The notes under the pieces: model-generated | Told to the model about the DNA's origin: nothing | Databases searched by the model: none | Seen by the model: only the letters and a program-made list of their open reading frames with translations | Part shown: piece after piece, positions 26,881 to 48,362 of the stretch | Layout: each line of letters starts with the position of its first letter | How positions within the stretch are numbered: the first letter of the stretch is position 1 | NCBI GenBank assembly: GCA_937931795.1 | Contig: CALHAP010000180.1 | Coordinates: 1 to 48,640 of the forward strand | From: an uncultured Paracoccaceae bacterium | GTDB taxonomy: Bacteria > Pseudomonadota > Alphaproteobacteria > Rhodobacterales > Rhodobacteraceae | DNA length: 48,640 nt | Reading direction: 5' to 3' | Made by a program: the position numbers and the translations under genes

Positions 26881-27387
26881 ATGTTTAAAGTCCTCGCCAC
26901 AACCGCCGCTCTGGCTGTTGCCGCCTCTACTGCCTCTGCCGCTGTTGTCGACGCGTTCGAGCTTGATGTCACATCTGCTGCAGGCACTGACTCCAGTGCA
27001 GTTCTCGCGGATGGTCAAACATATATGCTGACCGTGTCTGGCACATTCATGATCGGCTCAAACCAGACACGCCACGTGACAGACGCCGAATATTTCAACC
27101 TCGGCTCGACGCCTTTGAACCCGCTCGATCGCGTAGTTCGTCGCGAGCTGGGTGTCGGTGTTGATGGTGCTGACATTGATTTTGGTGCTTACAGCGCCGA
27201 CAACGTCTACAGCGCGCTGATCACTGGCGACGGCAGCACGATCAACGTGTTCTTCGCAGATTCCAACTACCGCGACAACACTGGCAGCCTGTCGGTTGAA
27301 ATCTCGTCCGTTCCTCTGCCAGCGGGTGCCGCTTTGCTCCTGACAGCTTTGGGCGGTCTGGGCATCGCGCGTCGTCGCACAGCCTAA
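26881..27387 (+). CDS. VPLPA-CTERM sorting-domain protein
   Basis: Signal peptide 'MFKVLATTAALAVAASTASAAV'; C-terminus 'VPLPAGAALLLTALGGLGIARRRTA'. Confidence 0.85.
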   Translation: MFKVLATTAALAVAASTASAAVVDAFELDVTSAAGTDSSAVLADGQTYMLTVSGTFMIGSNQTRHVTDAEYFNLGSTPLNPLDRVVRRELGVGVDGADIDFGAYSADNVYSALITGDGSTINVFFADSNYRDNTGSLSVEISSVPLPAGAALLLTALGGLGIARRRTA

Positions 27388-36465: not shown

Positions 36466-37143
36466 CTATTCGCCATCCGCCGCTGGCGTGTTTTGCCGAG
36501 GGCCGTAGTCTGCAAATGCAACAATAACCTCAGACATCTGATCATCCGTCAACAGCGTGGGCGTGCCGGTCATTTGGGCAAGCGTATAGACCCGCGCGAG
36601 GTTTTCGAGCTCTTCCATGCGCCACAGCGCACGCGCGAGGGTTTCGCCGGTGACAATTGCGCCGTGGTTCGCCAGCAGGCAGGCGCGCCGGTCTGTCAGT
36701 GCTTTGGTGGCCATCTCGGCCAGCTCACGGCTGCCGAACAGCGCATAATCGACCAGCGGGACATCATTGCCCCCAAATGCTGCGACCATGTAGTGACACG
36801 CAGGGATCGGGCGGCGCTGAATGGCCAGCGCGGTGGCATGGGCGGGATGCGCATGGACGACCGCGATTTGGTCCGGGTTCGCCCGCAGGATCGCCTGATG
36901 AAAGCGCCATTCACTGCTGGGGGGATAGGTCCCTGTCAGATCTGGGTCGCCATCAAGCGGCACGCGGCACATCATGTCGGGCCGCAAATCGTCATAGGGC
37001 ACGCCCGAAGGGGTAATGATCATCTGATCCCCGCACCGGACCGAGATGTTACCAGAGGTGCCTTGGTTCAAACCTGATGAGACCATCCACCGACAGCCAT
37101 CTATGATAGCCTGACGCAGGGTCTGATCGGCATCCGGCGTCAT
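36466..37143 (-). CDS. Class II aldolase/adducin family protein (candidate methylthioribulose/deoxyribulose-1-P aldolase)
   Basis: 'NQGTSGNISVR', 'MIITPSGVPYDDL', 'VVHAHPAHATALA', 'CLLANHGAIVTGETLARA'; adjacent to mtnA/mtnK. Confidence 0.9.
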   Translation of the reverse strand: MTPDADQTLRQAIIDGCRWMVSSGLNQGTSGNISVRCGDQMIITPSGVPYDDLRPDMMCRVPLDGDPDLTGTYPPSSEWRFHQAILRANPDQIAVVHAHPAHATALAIQRRPIPACHYMVAAFGGNDVPLVDYALFGSRELAEMATKALTDRRACLLANHGAIVTGETLARALWRMEELENLARVYTLAQMTGTPTLLTDDQMSEVIVAFADYGPRQNTPAADGE

Positions 37144-38135
37144 GGCGCATCCTGCAACAAAAGCGCGGCCGAGGCCGAACACGTGACAAGATGCGTGACA
37201 TAACCGCCCAGCATGGCAGCGCGCGTGGCGGGCACGCGGTCTATGCCCGCTGACACCAACATGCCCATATCCTTGTCGCGCATTTGATCCAGTGAGACAC
37301 CGATCATCCGGTCTTCGATCGGGGCAGGCATGGCCGCACCGTCTTGATCAATGATGCGCCCGCAAATCACGCCCGCAGCCCCTTTGTCGCGCATCTGCGC
37401 CAGCGTTGCGTGATCCAACAGGCCGGTCATGGCGATATGGCTGTCGGGGTCGGTTGTCCCAGCAGCAAAGATTGTCTTCTTGCACTGCGCAACCTTTTCA
37501 AGCTGATGGGCGATCATTGGTTCTGCTTTCAGCGTCTCGCAAAGCTCTGCCGAAGACAGCAAAAGCGGGGCGTGCAGGTTGTCACATTTTGCCCCGAACC
37601 TTTGCGCCAGTGTAGCCGCACAGTTTTCTGCGGCAAAACCGATTTCCGAGGGCTTCGAGCCGATCAATTGCACGATGGTCACATCCTCCAACGCCAGCTT
37701 GGGGGCGATTTCAGCCAAGCGGTAGATCGTCTCGCCCCATGCGATGCCAAGCTGGTCACCGGGGTTCAAAAAGTTGGGCAACCAATCCGAGGCGGCTTGC
37801 ACAACCCGCTCTTTCGAGCGGCTGGCAGAAGCTATGTCCGTGGGGACGATCAAGGCATCCTCGATGCCAAACTTGGCTTTGAGATCAAAGGCCAGCTGGT
37901 TATTGCGAAAAACATCGCTGTCCAACGTCACGCGCACATAATCGCGGCGGCGTGCTTCGGCCAGATAATTCACCACCGATGCGCGGCTGATATTCAGGCG
38001 CTTGGCGATGTCCCCTTGATTGAGGCCATCATGGAAATAGAGCCATGCGGCTTCGATGATATTGTCCTCAAGGCGTGACACACGACCCAAGCTGCTACCA
38101 GTTGGTTTCGGCGGGACCGCGGCTGGTGCTGGCAT
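37140..38135 (-). CDS. SorC/DeoR-type sugar-binding transcriptional regulator
   Basis: HTH 'AWLYFHDGLNQGDIAKRLNISRASVVNYLAEARRRDYV'; sugar-binding 'LGIAWGETIYRLAE', 'GDVCGRII'-like region 'AAGVICGRIIDQDG'. Confidence 0.93.
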   Translation of the reverse strand: MPAPAAVPPKPTGSSLGRVSRLEDNIIEAAWLYFHDGLNQGDIAKRLNISRASVVNYLAEARRRDYVRVTLDSDVFRNNQLAFDLKAKFGIEDALIVPTDIASASRSKERVVQAASDWLPNFLNPGDQLGIAWGETIYRLAEIAPKLALEDVTIVQLIGSKPSEIGFAAENCAATLAQRFGAKCDNLHAPLLLSSAELCETLKAEPMIAHQLEKVAQCKKTIFAAGTTDPDSHIAMTGLLDHATLAQMRDKGAAGVICGRIIDQDGAAMPAPIEDRMIGVSLDQMRDKDMGMLVSAGIDRVPATRAAMLGGYVTHLVTCSASAALLLQDAP

Positions 38136-39239
38136 CTAGGCCTCCGGTTTGGACAGATCTGGGAACATCGAGGCTAGCGCTTCGGGGGTCGCCTTACAGA
38201 TGCCGCGTTCCGTGATCAAGCCTGTGACCAAGCGGTTTGGGGTGACGTCAAAGGCCGGATTGCCGCCCGGCGTGCCTTCGGGGGTGACTTGCACAACACC
38301 AAGTGTCCCGTCCTCAAACGTGCCTTGGATGTGGGTCGTTTCGCGGGGGCTGCGGTCTTCAATTGGGATCTCGGCAACGCCGTCATCAACGGTCCAGTCG
38401 ATGGTGGGGGACGGCAGGGCCACATAAAACGGCACGCCATTATCATGGGCCGCTAGCGCCTTGAGATAGGTGCCGATCTTGTTGCACACGTCACCACGCC
38501 GCGTCGTGCGGTCGGTGCCGACGATCACCATGTCGACCTGCCCGTGCTGCATCAAATGCCCGCCCGCATTGTCGGTGATATAGGTGTGAGGAACCCCGTG
38601 GCTGCCCAGCTCCCACGACGTCAGCGCGCCTTGGTTGCGGGGCCGCGTTTCATCGACCCATACATGCAGCGGGATGCCCGCGTCATGGGCGTGATACATC
38701 GGGCTGGTGGCTGTGCCCCAATCGACGGTGGCGATCCAACCGGCATTGCAATGGGTTAGCAGGCGCACAGGTTCGCCTGCGGGCTTCTTGGCGGCAATCT
38801 CGCGGATCAGGGTCAATCCGTGTTCGCCAATCTGACGGTTGATCTCGACATCCTCATCGGCAATGTCATGGGCCATCGTTAATGCTGCAATCGCCCGGTC
38901 CGCGGGGGCCAAGGTGCGCAGTGCCGCGCGGCACCGGTTCAACGCCCATCGCAAGTTGATAGCTGTCGGGCGCGTTGCATTCAAGCAGTCCCACGCGGCA
39001 TCCATGTTTCTGTCGGACGGGTCAAGTTTCATCGCCAATGCCATACCGTAGGCCGCCGTGGCCCCAATCAACGGCGCGCCACGCACACGCATCTCAACGA
39101 TGGAATCCTCAAATTCCTTCATTGTCTTGACCTGCCGGATCACGAATTCATAGGGCAGCGAGCGTTGATCGATGATTTCCAGAACATCATCGTCATGGTT
39201 CCACCACAGCGAGCGGTAGTGCGTGCCTTTGACCTTCAT
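38136..39239 (-). CDS. mtnA: S-methyl-5-thioribose-1-phosphate isomerase
   Basis: 'DQRSLPYEF', '[21 protein letters not shown]', '[17 protein letters not shown]', 'DNAGGHLM', '[37 protein letters not shown]'. Confidence 0.95.
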
Positions 39240-40492
39240 AGGAAATCCTTTTCATTGAATGCCCGCGCGAGCGATGTCAGGTCTTTTGGTGTGTGCAGCG
39301 TGTCTGCCGTCAAAATCAGCGTTGTGCCCATTTCGATATTGCGGGCTTCCAGCGGGGCGCGGATGCTGGTGTCTTCGATACTTTCAAAGTCAGCGTTGTG
39401 GGCCAGTGATAGGCAGCGGCGGTGCATCTCGATCCCGCAGAACCGCAGGGCATCTGACCAGATGCCCTCCAGCACAGCGTCACATGCGCTTGCGCTGCTC
39501 TGACCCTGATCCTCGAACAACGCTTGGGAGTACAACATGCCGGTCCGCTCTGTCTGCCACAGGTGGCGGAATTCCTGCTCAAACGTCGTAAAGCAGTCTT
39601 CGATCACGCTGAGGATCCACGTTTGATAGGTGGCCAAATCGGTGCCGCGATGAGCAGGCTGGCTAAAGTAGGCCATCAGGTAGTTCGCCGCTAACATCCC
39701 AATATCGAACCCCATCGGCCCGTATTGCGCAAACTCAGGGTCGATGACGCGGCTTTGCGTGTCTATCGACATAATAGACCCCGAATGCAGGTCGCCATGC
39801 AGCATCGTCTCTGTGGTGCTGGCAAATTTCGCCAGCATGGATTGCGCGACACGTTTGAGGTCAATGTTGGCGCGCAAACTTCTGACAATCGGGTCCAGCT
39901 CAGGCGTATGATTGTTCATTTCGGCATCAAAATAGGGGTCCGTAAAAACCAACCCTTCGGTGATCGCGGGGATTTCGACATTGCCCGCGAACAGCGCAAC
40001 ATCGGCTTTTTTGTCAGGACTTTTCATCGACAATTCAGAGCCACGAAACGCCATGCGGGCACAAAAGGTGCCGCAGAACGCGCCCAAACCCGCAACTGTC
40101 TCGCCTGCGATCAGCTTGGTGCGCAAGATCACATGCGGCGACAAAAACTCCATCACGATCAGCGCCTGATCTTCGTCGAAATGATAAATTTCGGGCACCG
40201 ATCCGGGGTCGCGCAGCGCCTGACGGGTCAGCGCGTGGTATTCATAATAAGCGCGGTACAGCGGCAGCGGCCAACTGTCGCCCACCAGCCGCACGTAGGG
40301 CAGAGCCTGCTTGACGATCACGCTGCCTTTGGCGCTTTGCACAATGAACACGAGGTTCAGGTTGCCGTCACCAACCTCTCTGACGCTCCACTGCTGCGCA
40401 TCTTCACCTAGCTGTTCTATCAACGCAGGCAGATGCGCCAGCCGGTCCGGGAGGGTCTGCGTATCGAGTGCAAGATAGGCTGTCTGTGTCAT
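39236..40492 (-). CDS. mtnK: S-methyl-5-thioribose kinase
   Basis: '[12 protein letters not shown]', '[19 protein letters not shown]', '[12 protein letters not shown]', '[28 protein letters not shown]'. Confidence 0.95.
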
Positions 40493-40634: not shown

Positions 40635-42146
40635 ATGAAAACCTGCGAAATCATAGGTCTAGAAAAGTCCTTTGGCGGGAATCACGTTTTGCGCGGCATT
40701 GATATGCATCTGAGCGCCGGTGAGGTGGTTGTCCTTATGGGGGCTAACGGTGCTGGCAAGTCAACGCTGGTCAAAGTGCTGTGCGGTTTTCATGACCATG
40801 ATGGTGGCAGCATGCAGCTTGACGGGGTTGCCTATTGCCCCGCCGACGCGGCTGATGCGATTTCACACGGCGTTGTCACGGTGCACCAATCCATCGACGA
40901 CGGGGTGATCCCCGATCTGGATGTGGCAACCAACCTGATGTTGAACCAGCTGACAGAACCGGGCGCCGGGCTGCTGGTGCGCGACGGCGCGCTGCGGCGT
41001 GCTGCGCAAAAGGTGGCCGATAATATGGGGCTTCGCATGGATGTGCGCACCAAGGTCGCGGACCTGTCCGTGGCTGACCGGCAGATGATCGCGATTGCGC
41101 GCGCCATGGCCTATGACCCCAAGGTTCTTATCCTTGATGAACCCACATCGTCACTGTCGGCGTCAGAGGCGGACAGGTTGTTCACGCTGGTCGACCGCTT
41201 GCGCACGCAGGGCGTGGCGATCCTGTATATCTCGCACCGCATGTCCGACATCCGCCGCATCGCGGACCGGATCGTGTGCATGCGTGACGGTGAAATCTCC
41301 GGCACCTTTGAGCACGCCCCGCTGGACTATAGTGGCGCTGTCACCGCGATGCTGGGCCACAGCATGACCGATGTGGACATCGACGTGCAGCATGGTGGGC
41401 AACCCATTCTGGAGATCGACGCCCTCTCTTTGTCAGGTAGTGCGCAGACCGTTTCGTTCAGCGCACAGGACGGTGAGGTCATTGCGATCACGGGCCTTTT
41501 GGGCAGCGGCAAGAGCGCATTGGCGGATATCATCTTTGGTCTTCAAAGCCCTAAGAGCGGACAGATGCGGATCGCAGGGCAACCCTACGCGCCGCAAAGT
41601 GCGGCGCAGGCTGTCGCGGCTGGGGTCTTCATGTCGTCCAAGGATCGCAGCACCAACGCGGTGATCCCCGACTTTGACATTGCCAACAACATGACGCTAC
41701 CGTTTCTGAGCCAGTTCAGCCGCGCAACACTGCTTAGCACCCGCGCGCAACGCGCAGCGGCCCAGGACATGATCGCCCGCCTAGGGATCGTTTGCCAATC
41801 AGATGACGATGGCATCGGGACGCTGTCTGGCGGCAACCAGCAAAAGGTGATGATCGGACGGTGGCTGCTGAAAGACTGCCGCGTGCTACTGTTGGATGAG
41901 CCGTTTCAAGGGGTCGATATCGGCGCGCGTCGCGACATTGGTGCGCATATCCGCGCGACTGCCAAGGGGCGGGCAACTTTGGTCTTTGTGGCCGAACTGG
42001 ACGAAGCGCTCGAGATCGCTGACCGGATTATTGTGCTGAATGAAGGCGCAATCGCAGGCCAACATGAAAACCGCGGCGTGGATATGGAGGCACTGATAGC
42101 ACAGGTCTCTGGCCCCCTTGGCGCGCAACAACAAGTGAACACATAG
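40635..42146 (+). CDS. Sugar ABC transporter ATP-binding protein (RbsA-type, two ABC domains)
   Basis: 'LMGANGAGKSTLVKVLCG', 'LILDEPTSSLSASEADRLF', 'ITGLLGSGKSALADIIFG', 'LSGGNQQKVMIGRWLLKDCRVLLLDEPFQGVDIGARRDI'. Confidence 0.96.
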   Translation: MKTCEIIGLEKSFGGNHVLRGIDMHLSAGEVVVLMGANGAGKSTLVKVLCGFHDHDGGSMQLDGVAYCPADAADAISHGVVTVHQSIDDGVIPDLDVATNLMLNQLTEPGAGLLVRDGALRRAAQKVADNMGLRMDVRTKVADLSVADRQMIAIARAMAYDPKVLILDEPTSSLSASEADRLFTLVDRLRTQGVAILYISHRMSDIRRIADRIVCMRDGEISGTFEHAPLDYSGAVTAMLGHSMTDVDIDVQHGGQPILEIDALSLSGSAQTVSFSAQDGEVIAITGLLGSGKSALADIIFGLQSPKSGQMRIAGQPYAPQSAAQAVAAGVFMSSKDRSTNAVIPDFDIANNMTLPFLSQFSRATLLSTRAQRAAAQDMIARLGIVCQSDDDGIGTLSGGNQQKVMIGRWLLKDCRVLLLDEPFQGVDIGARRDIGAHIRATAKGRATLVFVAELDEALEIADRIIVLNEGAIAGQHENRGVDMEALIAQVSGPLGAQQQVNT

Positions 42147-43163
42147 ATGACGCGCGAGACCCTTCTTAACTTTGCGATCCGGTTCGGCTTTCTGATCCTG
42201 CTCTTTGGACTGGTGATCTATTTCAGCCTGTCGGCCAACGGCTTTGCATCGCCCCGCTCTGCGGCGTTCATCCTGCAATCCGTGGCGATCACGGGCATTT
42301 TGGCACTGGGTGTCACCTGCACCTTGGTCGTGGACGGGTTCGATTTATCCATCGGGTCGGTAGCGACATCCGCGTTGATGCTGTCGGCTTATGCGATGGT
42401 CATTCTTGAAATGTCAGCCGGATCCGCGGTGCTGCTGTGTTTGCTGATGGGGGCCGTTGTTGGGCTGATCAACGGGCTGTTAATCGTGAAGTTCAAGGTG
42501 CCGGACCTGCTGGCGACGCTCGGGATGATGTTCCTGTTGATCGGCTTGCAGCGCATCCCGACGCAGGGCAATTCCATCGCCACGGGCATGAAATTGGCCG
42601 ATGGCAGCACCGCCGAAGGAACATTTTCGGCAGCATTCCTATGGCTGGGGCGGCACCGCTTTGATCTGGTCGTCGAACGGTTGGTGCCGATGCCTGTGGT
42701 CATCTTCTTGATCACTGCTGTGGTGATCTGGGTGTTTCTTGAGCTGACCCGCCATGGCCGCCTGATGTACGCCATCGGATCGAACGAGCGTGCCGCCGCC
42801 TTGGTCGGCGCCAATGTGAGCCGCTATAAAATTGCGGCCTATATGATTTCGGGTGTCACCGCCTCTATCGGGGGCATCTTACTGGCCGCGCGGCTGGGGC
42901 GTGGTGATATCGCCAGCGGGAATAACCTGCTGCTCGACAGTGTGGCCGCTGCTTTGATCGGGTTCGCCGTGTTGGGTGCGGCGCGCGCAAATGCCTTTGG
43001 CACCGCAATCGGTGCGCTGTTTGTGGGCATCTTGTTGCAGGGTCTCACGATGATGAATGCCCCATACTACACCCAAGATTTCGTCAAAGGCGCGGTGCTC
43101 GTTCTGGCCCTTGTCTTTACCTTCTACCTGAGCGCCAAAAGAAGCGCGGGTGGGAAAACCTAA
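42147..43163 (+). CDS. Sugar ABC transporter permease (RbsC-type)
   Basis: 'GVTCTLVVDGFDLSIGSVATSALM', 'TRHGRLMYAIGSNERAAALVGANVSRYKIAAYMISG'. Confidence 0.95.
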   Translation: MTRETLLNFAIRFGFLILLFGLVIYFSLSANGFASPRSAAFILQSVAITGILALGVTCTLVVDGFDLSIGSVATSALMLSAYAMVILEMSAGSAVLLCLLMGAVVGLINGLLIVKFKVPDLLATLGMMFLLIGLQRIPTQGNSIATGMKLADGSTAEGTFSAAFLWLGRHRFDLVVERLVPMPVVIFLITAVVIWVFLELTRHGRLMYAIGSNERAAALVGANVSRYKIAAYMISGVTASIGGILLAARLGRGDIASGNNLLLDSVAAALIGFAVLGAARANAFGTAIGALFVGILLQGLTMMNAPYYTQDFVKGAVLVLALVFTFYLSAKRSAGGKT

Positions 43164-43188
43164 AACCAACATAATGGGAGGAAAAATT

Positions 43189-44229
43189 ATGTTACGACGT
43201 CAGGCTATGAAACTCATGGGGTCGGTCGCGCTGTTGACCGGATTGGGCAGTGCGGCAGTTGCAGACATGCCTGCCCCATTGGACAATGCAGGCGATGTAA
43301 AGATTGCCTTGGTGCGGTATCTGTCCACAGGCGACTTTTTCCAGTCCTATCTGTCTGGCGTGGAGACGCAGGCGGCGGCCATCGGCTTGGACCTGCGGGT
43401 GTTTGACAGCCGTCAGGACGCAGCCCTTCAGGCGGATATGGTTGATCAGGCGATCGCATTGGGCGTGGACGGGATTATCATTCAGCACGGGTTGACGGAG
43501 TCGATGAAAGACGCGGCTCAACGCGCTGTTGATGCAGGCATCAGTGTTGTGGCGTTTGATGTGAACGTCGAAAACGAGGCCATTCCGCAAATTGAACAGT
43601 CGGACTACCTTCTGGGCAAGCTCGCGTTGGAGCAGGCATTGGCTGATCACGGCAACGCCTTTACGGCGGGCTATGTCTATGTCCCCGGTATCGCGCCGCT
43701 GGATCGCCGCGATGTGGCGTGGGAAGAGGTGAGAGCTGCCAATCCCGACATCACCGAAGCGGCTGTGTTCGGCACGCTCGACAACCCGATTGCGAACTCT
43801 GTTGCGAACCAGGCCCGTTCGGTTTTGCAGGCAAATCCGAATATCTCGGTTGTCTTCGCACCCTACGATGAATTCGCCAAAGGCGTGAAAATCGCGGTGG
43901 ACGAGGCTGGCATGACCGATGACGTGGATATCTATTCCGCCGATGTCTCTACCGCTGACATTTCAGCGATGCGCGAGCCCGGTTCTGCATGGGTTGCGAC
44001 GGTTGCGACCAACCCATCGGTTGTGGGCGAGGTTTCGGTGCGTGCCCTTGCGCTGCTGCTGACAGGCGAAGACCCCGGCGCCAGCGTTGTGGTCCCACCG
44101 ACCTTGATCACGCAGGATTTTCTGAATGAGCAGGATATCCGCAATATGGATGATCTGGGAGCAAAGATGCCCCAATTCCAACACGCGGATGTGGCGATGG
44201 CCGATTGGATGCCACTGCCTGTGCGCTAA
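43189..44229 (+). CDS. Sugar ABC transporter substrate-binding protein (RbsB-like)
   Basis: Signal peptide; 'SRQDAALQADMVDQAIALGVDGIIIQHG', 'AVDAGISVVAFDVNV', 'VFAPYDEFAKGVKIAVDEAG'. Confidence 0.93.
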   Translation: MLRRQAMKLMGSVALLTGLGSAAVADMPAPLDNAGDVKIALVRYLSTGDFFQSYLSGVETQAAAIGLDLRVFDSRQDAALQADMVDQAIALGVDGIIIQHGLTESMKDAAQRAVDAGISVVAFDVNVENEAIPQIEQSDYLLGKLALEQALADHGNAFTAGYVYVPGIAPLDRRDVAWEEVRAANPDITEAAVFGTLDNPIANSVANQARSVLQANPNISVVFAPYDEFAKGVKIAVDEAGMTDDVDIYSADVSTADISAMREPGSAWVATVATNPSVVGEVSVRALALLLTGEDPGASVVVPPTLITQDFLNEQDIRNMDDLGAKMPQFQHADVAMADWMPLPVR

Positions 44230-44291: not shown

Positions 44292-44735
44292 ATGCTTATT
44301 GGAATTGACCCTGAAACCACGCCGGACCTGCTGCATTGTCTTGCCCAGATGGGTCACGGGGACGAAATTGCTGTGGTGGATGCGAATTATCCGGCGGTAG
44401 CCACGGCGGCCTTTTGTACGCACACGGCGGTTTTGCGGTATCCGGGCCACGATGCGCCCCAGGTCATCGACATCATCACCAAACTCATGCCGATTGACCC
44501 CTTCCACGACTATGCGGCGCTGCGCATGCAGGTGGATAATGCGCCCGATGACATGAACGCGGCCCATACCGCCGTTTGGGACATTTTAAATGCCCGCAAG
44601 CCCCAAGACGCGGCGTTGTCGAGCCTTTCACGGCAAGAGTTCTACGCACAGGCCCGGCGTAGCTTTGCTGTTGTTCAATGTCAGGAAGCCCGCCCATTTG
44701 GCTGCTTCATTCTACGCAAGGGTGTCATTTTCTAG
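44292..44735 (+). CDS. RbsD/FucU-family mutarotase
   Basis: 'MLIGIDPETTPDLLHCLAQMGHGDEIAVVDANYPAVA' closely follows the FucU N-terminus pattern. Confidence 0.92.
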   Translation: MLIGIDPETTPDLLHCLAQMGHGDEIAVVDANYPAVATAAFCTHTAVLRYPGHDAPQVIDIITKLMPIDPFHDYAALRMQVDNAPDDMNAAHTAVWDILNARKPQDAALSSLSRQEFYAQARRSFAVVQCQEARPFGCFILRKGVIF

Positions 44736-44819
44736 GCCCTCTTTCACCCGTTCCCCGACCTCATGGTCCTTAGCCTTATCGAAACCGACGAACGAAGTTG
44801 GTCCAAGCGGAGTTTTGCA

Positions 44820-45752
44820 ATGAAGAACGAAAAGACCACCGAGGACATCGCGCTCGGTATCCGCAGGCGTGTGTTTGAACACGCAATGCGCAACAATGGC
44901 GGCTATCTCAGTCAGGCCTGTTCGGCAGCTGAACAGCTGGCTTGGCTGTATAATGAAGAGCTGAACCTAGGCGCCCCCACGTTGCCGATGATCCCCAAGC
45001 CGTTCGAGGGCGTGCCCCATGCGGACAATCCCAACTACCATACTGGCGCGGGGTACAATGGCCCGTTTGAGGCGGATCTCGACCGGCTGTTCATCGCCCC
45101 TGCGCATTATGCGCTGGTGGCCTACGCCACGTTGATCGAGGTGGGTCGCATGGCCCCCGAAGGATTGGAGATGTTCAACAAGGACGGCTCTAGCGTCGAG
45201 ATGATCGGGGCCGAACATTCACCCGGCATGGAGGTACACAACGGCACTCTGGGCATTGGGCTGTCCACCGCCGCTGGTCTGGCATGGGGCCGGCAGAAAC
45301 GCGGCGAGACAGGAAAAACATGGGTTTATATGTCAGACGGTGAAGTGCAGGAAGGCCAGACTTGGGAGGCGATCCAGTGTTGCGCGCATCACAAGATTGA
45401 CAGCGTCAAAGCGATTATGGACGTGAACCGCCAGCAATGTGACGGCGCGATGGACAGCGTGATGGAAGTGGGTGATATCCGCGCCAAGATGGAGCAATTC
45501 GGTGCCGTCGTGGCCGAATGTGACGCCCATGATTTGAACGCCATGCGGGATGCGGCACGCACCCCGCACGCGGGCAAGCCGCTGATCATTCTAGCCCATT
45601 CCAACCCGTTCCACGCGATGCCGATCTTGGAAGAACGCTTTCCACGCCTGCACTACGTGCGTTTCAAATCCGAAGAAGAACGCGCGCGGATGAACACCTC
45701 TATTGCGGACGCTTTGGGCGTCGACCCCATTGACTACGAAGGAGCCCACTGA
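44820..45752 (+). CDS. Transketolase, N-terminal (TPP pyrophosphate-binding) subunit
   Basis: 'GAEHSPGMEVHNGTLGIGLSTAAGLAWGRQKRGETGKTWVYMSDGEVQEGQTWEAIQCCAHHKIDSVKAIMDVNRQQCDG'. Confidence 0.95.
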   Translation: MKNEKTTEDIALGIRRRVFEHAMRNNGGYLSQACSAAEQLAWLYNEELNLGAPTLPMIPKPFEGVPHADNPNYHTGAGYNGPFEADLDRLFIAPAHYALVAYATLIEVGRMAPEGLEMFNKDGSSVEMIGAEHSPGMEVHNGTLGIGLSTAAGLAWGRQKRGETGKTWVYMSDGEVQEGQTWEAIQCCAHHKIDSVKAIMDVNRQQCDGAMDSVMEVGDIRAKMEQFGAVVAECDAHDLNAMRDAARTPHAGKPLIILAHSNPFHAMPILEERFPRLHYVRFKSEEERARMNTSIADALGVDPIDYEGAH

Positions 45753-46756
45753 TGGCCGAAATGGTATCGCGCCCCTATGAGCGCGCCTTTGAAAAACACG
45801 CGCTCGCCAATCCGGATGTGCTGTGTCTCTCGGCGGACCTGACCTCGTCTTGCGAGATCGACAAATTCCGCGACAATCACCCCGATCAGTTCCTGTCGCT
45901 GGGCATGGCCGAACAGAACATGATGAGCTTTGCAGGGGGCCTTGGCCTTGCCGGTTACCGCCCGTTTATCCACACGTTCGGCGTTTTTTGCTACCGCAGG
46001 CCCTATGATCAATTGATGGCCTCTATTGCTTATCCACGCCGCAAGGTGCGCATTATGGGGTTCCTGCCCGGCATCACCACGCCCGGCGGCATGACCCACC
46101 AAGCCATTGAAGACATTAGCGTCATGCGCTCGATGCCGAACATGACGATCCTTGAGACAGGCGATGCGACCGAGGTCGAAAGCATCTGCGAAGCCGCCGA
46201 CAGCATCGACGGTCCGGTCTATTGCCGCGTGTTGCGCGGGTCGATGCCGCGCTTGTTCGACACGCCAATTGTAGTGGGGCAAATGCGCGAGATCAGCATG
46301 GGCGACGACGTCCTGATCGTCACTGCAGGTATCACCACTGAAGAAGCGATGCGCGCCACCAAAGCGTTGGAAGGCGCGGGTGTCTCGGTGCGGCATCTGC
46401 ATCTCAACACGATCAAACCCTTCGATGCGGCCACAATGCTGGACCACATCAACAGCGTAAAAGGCGGGGTGGTCACGCTCGAAAACCACGTCACCGAAGG
46501 CGGCATCGGGTCGCTCATGGCCGAGATCATGGCCGACAACGGCGTGGGCAAGAAGTTGAAACGTCTGGGCCTCAATGACACCTATGCCCACGGCGGCAGC
46601 CGCGCCTACCTAATGCGCTACTACGGGTTGGACGCGCTTGCGCTGACCCAAGGGATCGAAGAGTTGATGGGCGAAAAGCTGGGCATTACAGAACAAGACC
46701 TGTCAGAGGCCCGCGTTGACGCGGTGCATTCGCTGGCCAAGGCAGAGGGCCTGTGA
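45752..46756 (+). CDS. Transketolase, C-terminal (pyrimidine-binding) subunit
   Basis: 'LGMAEQNMMSFAGGLGLAGYRPFIHTFGVFCYRRPYDQL', 'GITTPGGMTHQAIEDISVMRSMPNM', 'TLENHVTEGGIGSLMAEI'; TGATG overlap with the upstream subunit. Confidence 0.95.
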   Translation: MAEMVSRPYERAFEKHALANPDVLCLSADLTSSCEIDKFRDNHPDQFLSLGMAEQNMMSFAGGLGLAGYRPFIHTFGVFCYRRPYDQLMASIAYPRRKVRIMGFLPGITTPGGMTHQAIEDISVMRSMPNMTILETGDATEVESICEAADSIDGPVYCRVLRGSMPRLFDTPIVVGQMREISMGDDVLIVTAGITTEEAMRATKALEGAGVSVRHLHLNTIKPFDAATMLDHINSVKGGVVTLENHVTEGGIGSLMAEIMADNGVGKKLKRLGLNDTYAHGGSRAYLMRYYGLDALALTQGIEELMGEKLGITEQDLSEARVDAVHSLAKAEGL

Positions 46757-47886
46757 TGGACCGCTTTACCGTCACCTACCGGATCGTGGCCGAAGATGAC
46801 GCGGACGCGGCGGCACGGGCCGAGGCGATCGCCTTGGAAGACACGCTCGAAATCCCCCGTGACGTGGTGCCAGCGGGTTACATCGAAGACGTTGTGTTGG
46901 GACAGGTGCAGAGCGTGACGGCCAGTGGCAGCGGCGTTTGGACAGCCAAGATCGGCTATCACATCGACGCCGTGGGGCGCGAATTGCCGCAACTGCTGAA
47001 TGTCATCCTTGGCAATGCCTCTATTCTGCGGGGCGTGAAGGCTGTTGATCTGACCCCGAACGATGATCTGCACGCGCGCTTTCCCGGCCCGCGTTTTGGC
47101 GCGGCGGGCCTGCGGCAGCTGACGGGCCGCAAGACCGGCGGGTATGTCTGCCCGGTGATCAAACCGCAGGGGTCGTCGTCTGAAACCTTGGCGCGGCTAT
47201 GCTACCTGACGGCTGCGGCCGGAGCGGACATTATCAAAGAGGATCACGGGCTAGCCAATCAGGACGCGGCCCCCTTCAAAGACCGGATCAAGGCCTGCGC
47301 GGCGGCCGTCGCTCAGGCCAACAATGAGCGCGCCGATCAGGGCGATACTTCGCGCGCGCTGTACTTTGCCAATATCGGCGGGCACGGCGATCAGGTCCGC
47401 GATATGGCTTATTACGCCAAGGACGCGGGTGCCGAGGGGATCTTGGTCATCCCCGGCCTGTTTGGTTTTGACGCCATCAATCGCTTGGCGCAGGACGCGG
47501 AGTTGAACCTGCCCATCATGGCACATCCCAGCCATCTCGGGCCGTACGTCCTGTCGCCCGATCATGGGTACGGGCATGGTATGCTGTTTGGTCAGTTGAT
47601 GCGTCTCGCAGGGGCGGATATTTCGGTGTTCCCGAACTACGGTGGACGCTTCGGGTTTAGCCAAGACGAATGCATGCGGATCGTTGAGTCGTGCCGCGCG
47701 CCGGATGGTATCGGCCCCGCCATGCTGCCCAGCCCCGGCGGCGGCATGAGCATCGACCGCCTGCCAGACATGGCCGCGCATTACGGCGCGGATTGCGTTT
47801 ACCTTCTGGGCGGCAGCCTATTGCGGTATGGCGAAAACATCGGGGACGCCATCCGCGAAATGCGGGACGGGTTAAATGCCGCCTAG
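46753..47886 (+). CDS. RuBisCO-like protein (form IV RLP)
   Basis: 'VCPVIKPQGSSSETLARLCYLTAAAGADIIKEDHGLANQ', 'IMAHPSH', 'DCVYLLGGSLLRYG': RuBisCO-large-subunit fold motifs with substituted active-site residues. Confidence 0.95.
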   Translation: MMDRFTVTYRIVAEDDADAAARAEAIALEDTLEIPRDVVPAGYIEDVVLGQVQSVTASGSGVWTAKIGYHIDAVGRELPQLLNVILGNASILRGVKAVDLTPNDDLHARFPGPRFGAAGLRQLTGRKTGGYVCPVIKPQGSSSETLARLCYLTAAAGADIIKEDHGLANQDAAPFKDRIKACAAAVAQANNERADQGDTSRALYFANIGGHGDQVRDMAYYAKDAGAEGILVIPGLFGFDAINRLAQDAELNLPIMAHPSHLGPYVLSPDHGYGHGMLFGQLMRLAGADISVFPNYGGRFGFSQDECMRIVESCRAPDGIGPAMLPSPGGGMSIDRLPDMAAHYGADCVYLLGGSLLRYGENIGDAIREMRDGLNAA

Positions 47887-47975: not shown

Positions 47976-48362
47976 GTGGCACGCGAGACGATTGCAGACT
48001 TTTGGGATGCTATGGGTTCCAATGATTTTACTTATGCCAGCACACGGCTGCATCCAGATTTTGAATACTACATGCCTCAAACCCGAGAATACTTGCGTGG
48101 ACGTTCGGATTTCGCCGCGTTGAACGACAGTTATCCCGCTGAAGGAAAATGGATATTCTCCGTCCAATCCATCGTTTCAGATGGCCAGAATGCGGTGTCA
48201 GATGTAGTAATCACAAATGGCGCGATGAAGGCCCGTGCAGTTACTTTTCACACCCTGCAAGACGGATTGATTATACGTCAGAAAGAATATTGGCCTGAAG
48301 ATTATCCAGCACCTGACTGGCGAAAAGAGTGGGTCAAGACGGTAGACGTGGTGCCATTTTAG
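47976..48362 (+). CDS. Nuclear transport factor 2 / SnoaL-like protein
   Basis: 'ETIADFWDAMGSNDFTYASTRLHPDFEYYMPQTREYLRGRSDFAALNDSYP'; GTG start. Confidence 0.7.
   Translation: MARETIADFWDAMGSNDFTYASTRLHPDFEYYMPQTREYLRGRSDFAALNDSYPAEGKWIFSVQSIVSDGQNAVSDVVITNGAMKARAVTFHTLQDGLIIRQKEYWPEDYPAPDWRKEWVKTVDVVPF

Follow-up and report, generated by a model that had tools for sequence, protein, structure and literature searches.

The window analysed here, a stretch of 48,640 nucleotides from an uncultured Paracoccaceae bacterium, contains a RuBisCO-like protein (RLP) gene preceded by the genes of a split transketolase and of a sugar importer on the plus strand, and a divergent group of sugar-salvage genes on the minus strand. 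The features of the locus are the following:

36466–37182, minus strand: class II aldolase, FucA-like (PF00596; FucA models 213 and 198 bits), a candidate Ald2-type ketose-1-phosphate aldolase and not MtnB
37140–38135, minus strand: DeoR/SorC-type sugar-binding transcriptional regulator (PF04198; DeoR/LsrR models)
38136–39239, minus strand: MtnA, S-methyl-5-thioribose-1-phosphate isomerase (TIGR00512, 423.2 bits, cut-off 279)
39236–40492, minus strand: MtnK, S-methyl-5-thioribose kinase (TIGR01767, 461.6 bits, cut-off 275), divergent from the ABC-transketolase-RLP operon
40635–42146, plus strand: ABC importer ATPase, RbsA/AraG type (model match), first gene of the plus-strand operon
42147–43163, plus strand: ABC importer permease, ribose/arabinose type (PRK09512/AraH-type models)
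43150–44229, plus strand: ABC importer periplasmic sugar-binding protein, start uncertain (PF13407, Peripla_BP_4)
44292–44735, plus strand: RbsD/FucU-type sugar mutarotase (PF05025; L-fucose mutarotase model below cut-off)
44763–45752, plus strand: split transketolase N-terminal half, ThDP-binding (Pfam Transketolase_N; best PDB match 6yak); translation may in fact begin at a later ATG
45752–46756, plus strand: split transketolase C-terminal half, pyrimidine-binding and C-terminal domains (Pfam Transket_pyr, Transketolase_C; best PDB match 6yaj)
46753–47886, plus strand: RLP of a transketolase-linked sister clade of DeepYkr, predicted to be of the 5-methylthioribulose-1-phosphate 1,3-isomerase type (models, tree, alignment, AlphaFold2)

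The RLP reading frame encodes 377 residues from a GTG start, with an in-frame ATG next at 46756, and its start is overlapped by the stop of the transketolase C-terminal half. It matches the Pfam RuBisCO_large model at 55.8 bits (cut-off 30.1), PRK09549 at 1e-53 and the PDB entry 3qfw at 1.6e-57, and a scan of species genomes found it kept in 68 further loci, at 87% to 42% identity; it is therefore not a chance frame. Some other recurring ORF clusters, which overlap known genes on the opposite strand, were discounted as antisense frames. By record title, the relatives in the 68 loci are nearly all alphaproteobacterial, and many marine and soil alphaproteobacteria carry the protein. One title, that of locus L035 (Enemella evansiae, an actinobacterial name), looks wrong, and locus L042, labelled Gammaproteobacteria, may be misbinned. 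Structure prediction with AlphaFold2 gave a pLDDT of 94.8 from an alignment of 70 sequences, compared with 62 from three sequences, and the PDB structure closest to the model is again 3qfw (TM 0.86–0.92), an R. palustris RLP which, on sequence grounds, we take to be RLP1. Elsewhere in the window, a 128-residue ORF lies 3′ of the RLP at 47976–48362 (plus strand) and has no NCBIfam match, and a 168-residue protein at 26881–27387 (plus strand) bears a VPLPA-CTERM sorting signal.

The active site was examined in an alignment of 70 sequences of the window clade and 15 DeepYkr sequences, together with MtnW, Photo, NonPhoto/OiaX and RuBisCO rows. The RuBisCO positions E60, T65, W66, N123, K175 and K177 correspond to E29, I34, P35, N88, K137 and Q139 of the window RLP; K201, D203, E204, H294 and R295 to K162, D164, H165, H258 and P259; and H327, K334, S379 and G403/G404 to V292, R299, G329 and G353/G354. 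The first-pass annotation had read K175, K201, D203, H294 and the GG phosphate loop as kept, and K177, E204 and R295 as changed to Gln, His and Pro, all of which is seen in the alignment. The replacement that it described for the H327/K334 region holds for H327, now Val, and needs refinement for K334, which is not simply lost but aligns with R299, an Arg invariant in the window clade and DeepYkr. Bona fide RuBisCOs of forms I–III have the metal triad K201/D203/E204 together with R295, H327 and K334; with H165, P259, V292 and R299 in the window RLP, the alignment does not restore the full set of catalytic residues. These residues support the earlier prediction: the protein is a form IV RLP, expected to bind a sugar phosphate and to enolise it, and it cannot work as an ordinary RuBisCO. 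The companion proposal, that the active site is unlike known ones, is not supported: every landmark change is also present in the DeepYkr group, R. palustris RLP1 included, K137, K162, D164, H165, H258, P259, R299 and G353/G354 are common to all 15 DeepYkr rows, and the DeepYkr isomerases carry the same signature (KPQG, K[E/D]DH, HP, NxGGRF, GGSL). Overall, the window RLP is only about 32–36% identical to the group of the characterised isomerases, and it has a loop (approximately residues 264–275) absent from them, a similar one being found in L203, a cupin-linked RLP.

Clade placement, which had been considered undecidable by eye, was addressed by phylogeny. In a maximum-likelihood tree the window RLP falls within a group of 27 sampled transketolase-linked RLPs (support 84/80), whose sister group is formed by the 15 DeepYkr RLPs, including 3qfw (100/99); the two groups are joined at 100/100. 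The window clade is thus sister to the R. rubrum/R. palustris group and not nested inside it. MtnW branches next outward (100/97), and Photo and NonPhoto/OiaX stand apart, the latter as a clade with 100/99 support. A second tree, to which L203 was added (an RLP of a non-member of the class, which shares 42% identity with the window RLP and precedes a cupin gene), agrees; the transketolase-linked group has a support of 76/84, and L203 falls just outside both groups, weakly placed. The support for the transketolase-linked RLPs as a single clade is moderate, and the position of L203 hints that the cupin pairing is ancestral and the transketolase pairing derived. OiaX, the 3-oxo-isoapionate-4-phosphate decarboxylase of the apionate pathway, is likewise a sugar-catabolic RLP of alphaproteobacteria, but its clade keeps E204 and K334, both of which are replaced in the window RLP; this assignment was rejected by the separate clade and the model score (65 bits, cut-off 700), and the Photo and NonPhoto placements were ruled out by tree and model scores.

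A more telling feature than the active site, missed by the first-pass annotation, is the constant pairing of the RLP with the split transketolase and with methylthioribose-salvage genes. The transketolase C-terminal half lies directly upstream of the RLP in all 67 loci that could be judged, the 68th beginning at a contig end, and the distance between them is 0–7 nucleotides in nearly all. MtnA was found in at least 51 of the 68 loci, MtnK in at least 49, and a class II aldolase or RhaD-like aldolase-dehydrogenase near the operon in at least 32, these counts being lower bounds because many of the fetched flanks end early. This transketolase subfamily occurs in 26 of 298 genomes of the family, 19 of which also carry the RLP, always adjacent when coordinates were compared. 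A different partner accompanies the DeepYkr RLPs: a cupin methylsulfurylase stands beside the RLP in 13 of 14 loci, fetched without selecting for cupin, and the 14th ends at a contig edge. The linked cupin 1-methylthioxylulose-5-phosphate methylsulfurylase that marks the MTA-isoprenoid shunt is absent from the transketolase-linked loci (0 of 72), and a search of the organism's own genome, 82% complete and searched without a positive control, returned no cupin homologue.

The new element is the partner, a split transketolase in place of the cupin. The DeepYkr RLPs of R. rubrum and R. palustris are proven 5-methylthioribulose-1-phosphate 1,3-isomerases, whose products are 1-methylthioxylulose-5-phosphate and 1-methylthioribulose-5-phosphate at 3:1 (PMC5893883). 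RLP1 of the MTA-isoprenoid shunt (RPA2169) shares with the window RLP the E204 to His, R295 to Pro and K334 to Arg changes and the 3qfw fold; the window's gene set goes beyond that of DeepYkr by an importer, a mutarotase and MtnK, and so looks catabolic. There is a second resemblance, to the DHAP shunt (MtnK, MtnA and Ald2, with the regulator MtnR in E. coli), since MtnK, MtnA, a class II aldolase and a DeoR-type regulator adjoin on the minus strand; in the window the aldolase is only a candidate, and the plus strand adds the ABC importer, mutarotase, split transketolase and RLP. The open-access papers searched cover the MTA-isoprenoid shunt, sulfoglycolytic transketolases and the DHAP shunt, and none was found to report an RLP-transketolase pairing; most subscription journals and preprints lay outside this search, so novelty is unproven.

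The closest PDB entries to both transketolase halves are those of the split enzyme of Carboxydothermus hydrogenoformans (6yak for the N-terminal and 6yaj for the C-terminal half), which is likewise made of two chains with the ThDP motif and the catalytic Glu. The window enzyme keeps the ThDP motif (SDGE...N), the catalytic Glu (GMAEQN), the His of THQ and the first active-site His. Unlike the C. hydrogenoformans enzyme, it is without the GHP His (VEMIG instead) and the GEDG Asp (TPGG instead), and it adjoins an RLP or a sugar kinase/oxidoreductase cluster; the H461 position is also changed. In canonical transketolases the GHP His and the GEDG Asp contact ketose hydroxyls, the former (H100 in E. 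coli) contacting the C1 hydroxyl of the donor. Their loss would fit a substrate without a C1 hydroxyl, and it is not specific, as both residues are also missing in another split-transketolase group (L141–L144). That group, together with L164 and L165 (28–37%), lacks the GHP histidine, has NonPhoto-type RLP matches in three of its four genomes, and is possibly an apulose-4-phosphate transketolase. The sulfoglycolytic SqwGH is also a split transketolase acting on a sulfur-bearing deoxy sugar; the two systems are alike, by description, in combining such an enzyme with a sulfur sugar, but the SqwGH substrate is a sulfonate and its pathway has no RLP, whereas the window pathway would handle a thioether, has an RLP and is encoded among other neighbours.

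Methylthioribose is a sulfur sugar left from S-adenosylmethionine. We interpret the locus, with moderate confidence, as a catabolic operon for methylthioribose, and probably for related 5-deoxypentoses, in which the RLP acts before the transketolase; the linkage of the genes is observed and the chemistry is deduced from it. The free sugar would enter through the ABC importer and have its anomers equilibrated by the RbsD/FucU protein, after which MtnK would give the 1-phosphate and MtnA 5-methylthioribulose-1-phosphate. As in the DeepYkr RLPs of R. rubrum and R. palustris, the RLP would then use metal-assisted enolisation to shift the carbonyl group of this ketose from C2 to C4, yielding 1-methylthio-xylulose-5-phosphate. 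Judged from homology, uptake and the MtnK, MtnA and RLP steps are likely. It is also likely that the RLP product is the substrate of the split transketolase, which would take the place of the R. rubrum cupin and cleave the C2–C3 bond, so that glyceraldehyde-3-phosphate leaves and a C2 unit stays bound to ThDP. As C1 would carry CH3S, methanethiol could be eliminated from the ThDP enamine to leave an acetyl unit, in the way that water is lost in phosphoketolase and sulfite in sulfoacetaldehyde acetyltransferase; by this analogy, methanethiol release by the transketolase is conceivable, with somewhat less than an even chance, and otherwise the C2 unit would be released or transferred. No genes for the use of acetyl phosphate or methanethiol were recognised in the operon. 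The complete oxygen-independent route, from the RLP through 1-methylthioxylulose-5-phosphate to glyceraldehyde-3-phosphate and acetyl with elimination of methanethiol by the transketolase-like enzyme, which would recover carbon as well as sulfur from methylthioribose or from its S-oxide, is put forward tentatively. The FucA-like aldolase would form a parallel DHAP-shunt branch; it could also drain the same intermediate, which counts against the main reading.

Variant loci bear on the substrate. In L022, L029, L035 and L036 a purine nucleoside phosphorylase, a 5′-deoxyadenosine/MTA-type deaminase and MtnA precede the transketolase-RLP triad, the phosphorylase and deaminase replacing MtnK. Such a gene set is what the pathway would require if it were fed by nucleosides, as phosphorolysis would give the 1-phosphate without MtnK. 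A BisC-family molybdopterin S/N-oxide reductase adjoins the triad in L022, L035, L040, L064, L065 and L088, which suggests S-oxide (methylsulfinyl) sugars as substrates. Arsenosugars and 5-methylthioxylose were considered as further natural substrates; nothing found bears on either. The transketolase also occurs without an RLP. The organism's own genome has a second split pair (G000:C14:1-18000, locus L161), with a C-terminal half 87% identical to that of the window, among a different sugar ABC importer, a BisC-type reductase, two Zn-dehydrogenases, a xylulokinase-like FGGY kinase and an AraD/FucA-type gene, whose full-length homologue in L064 scores best as L-ribulose-5-phosphate 4-epimerase, just under the cut-off. 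Similar RLP-free clusters are found in L191–L195. This gene content suggests that the transketolase takes a D-xylulose-5-phosphate-like substrate, formed either from a ketose-1-phosphate by the RLP or from a free ketose by a kinase. More distant split-transketolase relatives (about 43–52%), also without an RLP, are present in L163, with an FGGY kinase, an ABC importer and a SorC regulator, and in L196.

Other readings of the operon were weighed as well. The main substrate could be 5-deoxyribose, derived from the 5′-deoxyadenosine of radical SAM enzymes, in which case the RLP would form 1-deoxyxylulose-5-phosphate, to be split by the transketolase into glyceraldehyde-3-phosphate and an acetaldehyde unit or fed into isoprenoid and vitamin synthesis. 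Pathways of MtnK, MtnA and class II aldolase handle this sugar besides methylthioribose (PMC10986504, PMC12632272), and one variant cluster has a deaminase related to 5′-deoxyadenosine deaminase; but the six loci with a BisC-type S-oxide reductase next to the triad argue for a sugar that carries sulfur, and the nearest characterised RLPs use a methylthio sugar, which makes this reading unlikely.

A different, new enolisation by the RLP, with the transketolase acting earlier or on another sugar (for example, exchanging a C2 unit with an aldehyde that the aldolase produces), would agree with the aldolases found near the operon and with the ability of transketolases to run in both directions, and we know of no assayed enzyme in this RLP subfamily. 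All landmark residues nevertheless match those of proven isomerases, and the RLP-free transketolase copies with a xylulokinase-like kinase and an AraD-like gene suggest a substrate of the xylulose-5-phosphate type; we consider this reading improbable. An ordinary MTA-isoprenoid shunt, with the cupin encoded elsewhere and the transketolase serving another sugar, agrees with the type of RLP and is very improbable given the cupin searches described above and the near-constant transketolase-RLP junction over the 68 loci, a gene order that already makes it unlikely. An MtnW-like enolase of classical methionine salvage is scarcely credible: the best NCBIfam model is an MtnW-type enolase, and MtnK and MtnA are present, but the score is 182.3 bits against a cut-off of 409, the RLP lies outside the MtnW clade with His instead of Glu at E204, and, of the classical set (MtnB, MtnC or MtnW/X, MtnD), the adjacent aldolase is not MtnB, reaching 60 bits with the MtnB model (cut-off 137), and MtnD (ARD) was searched for with no match in the own genome and none above the cut-off in the 46 family genomes, own and 45 related. 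The loss of MtnD was dropped as a mark of replacement of the classical pathway, as it is missing in all 46 genomes with or without the transketolase.

In the loci examined, DeepYkr-type RLPs have two mutually exclusive partners, a cupin or a split transketolase, and the reading of the operon as a methylthioribose catabolic system provides a likely function for the whole sister group of RuBisCO-like proteins. If correct, it would describe a route for methylthioribose catabolism that needs no oxygen and might set free methanethiol, a volatile of interest for the marine sulfur cycle. It would also provide a case in which a transketolase-type enzyme uses a ketose without a C1 hydroxyl.
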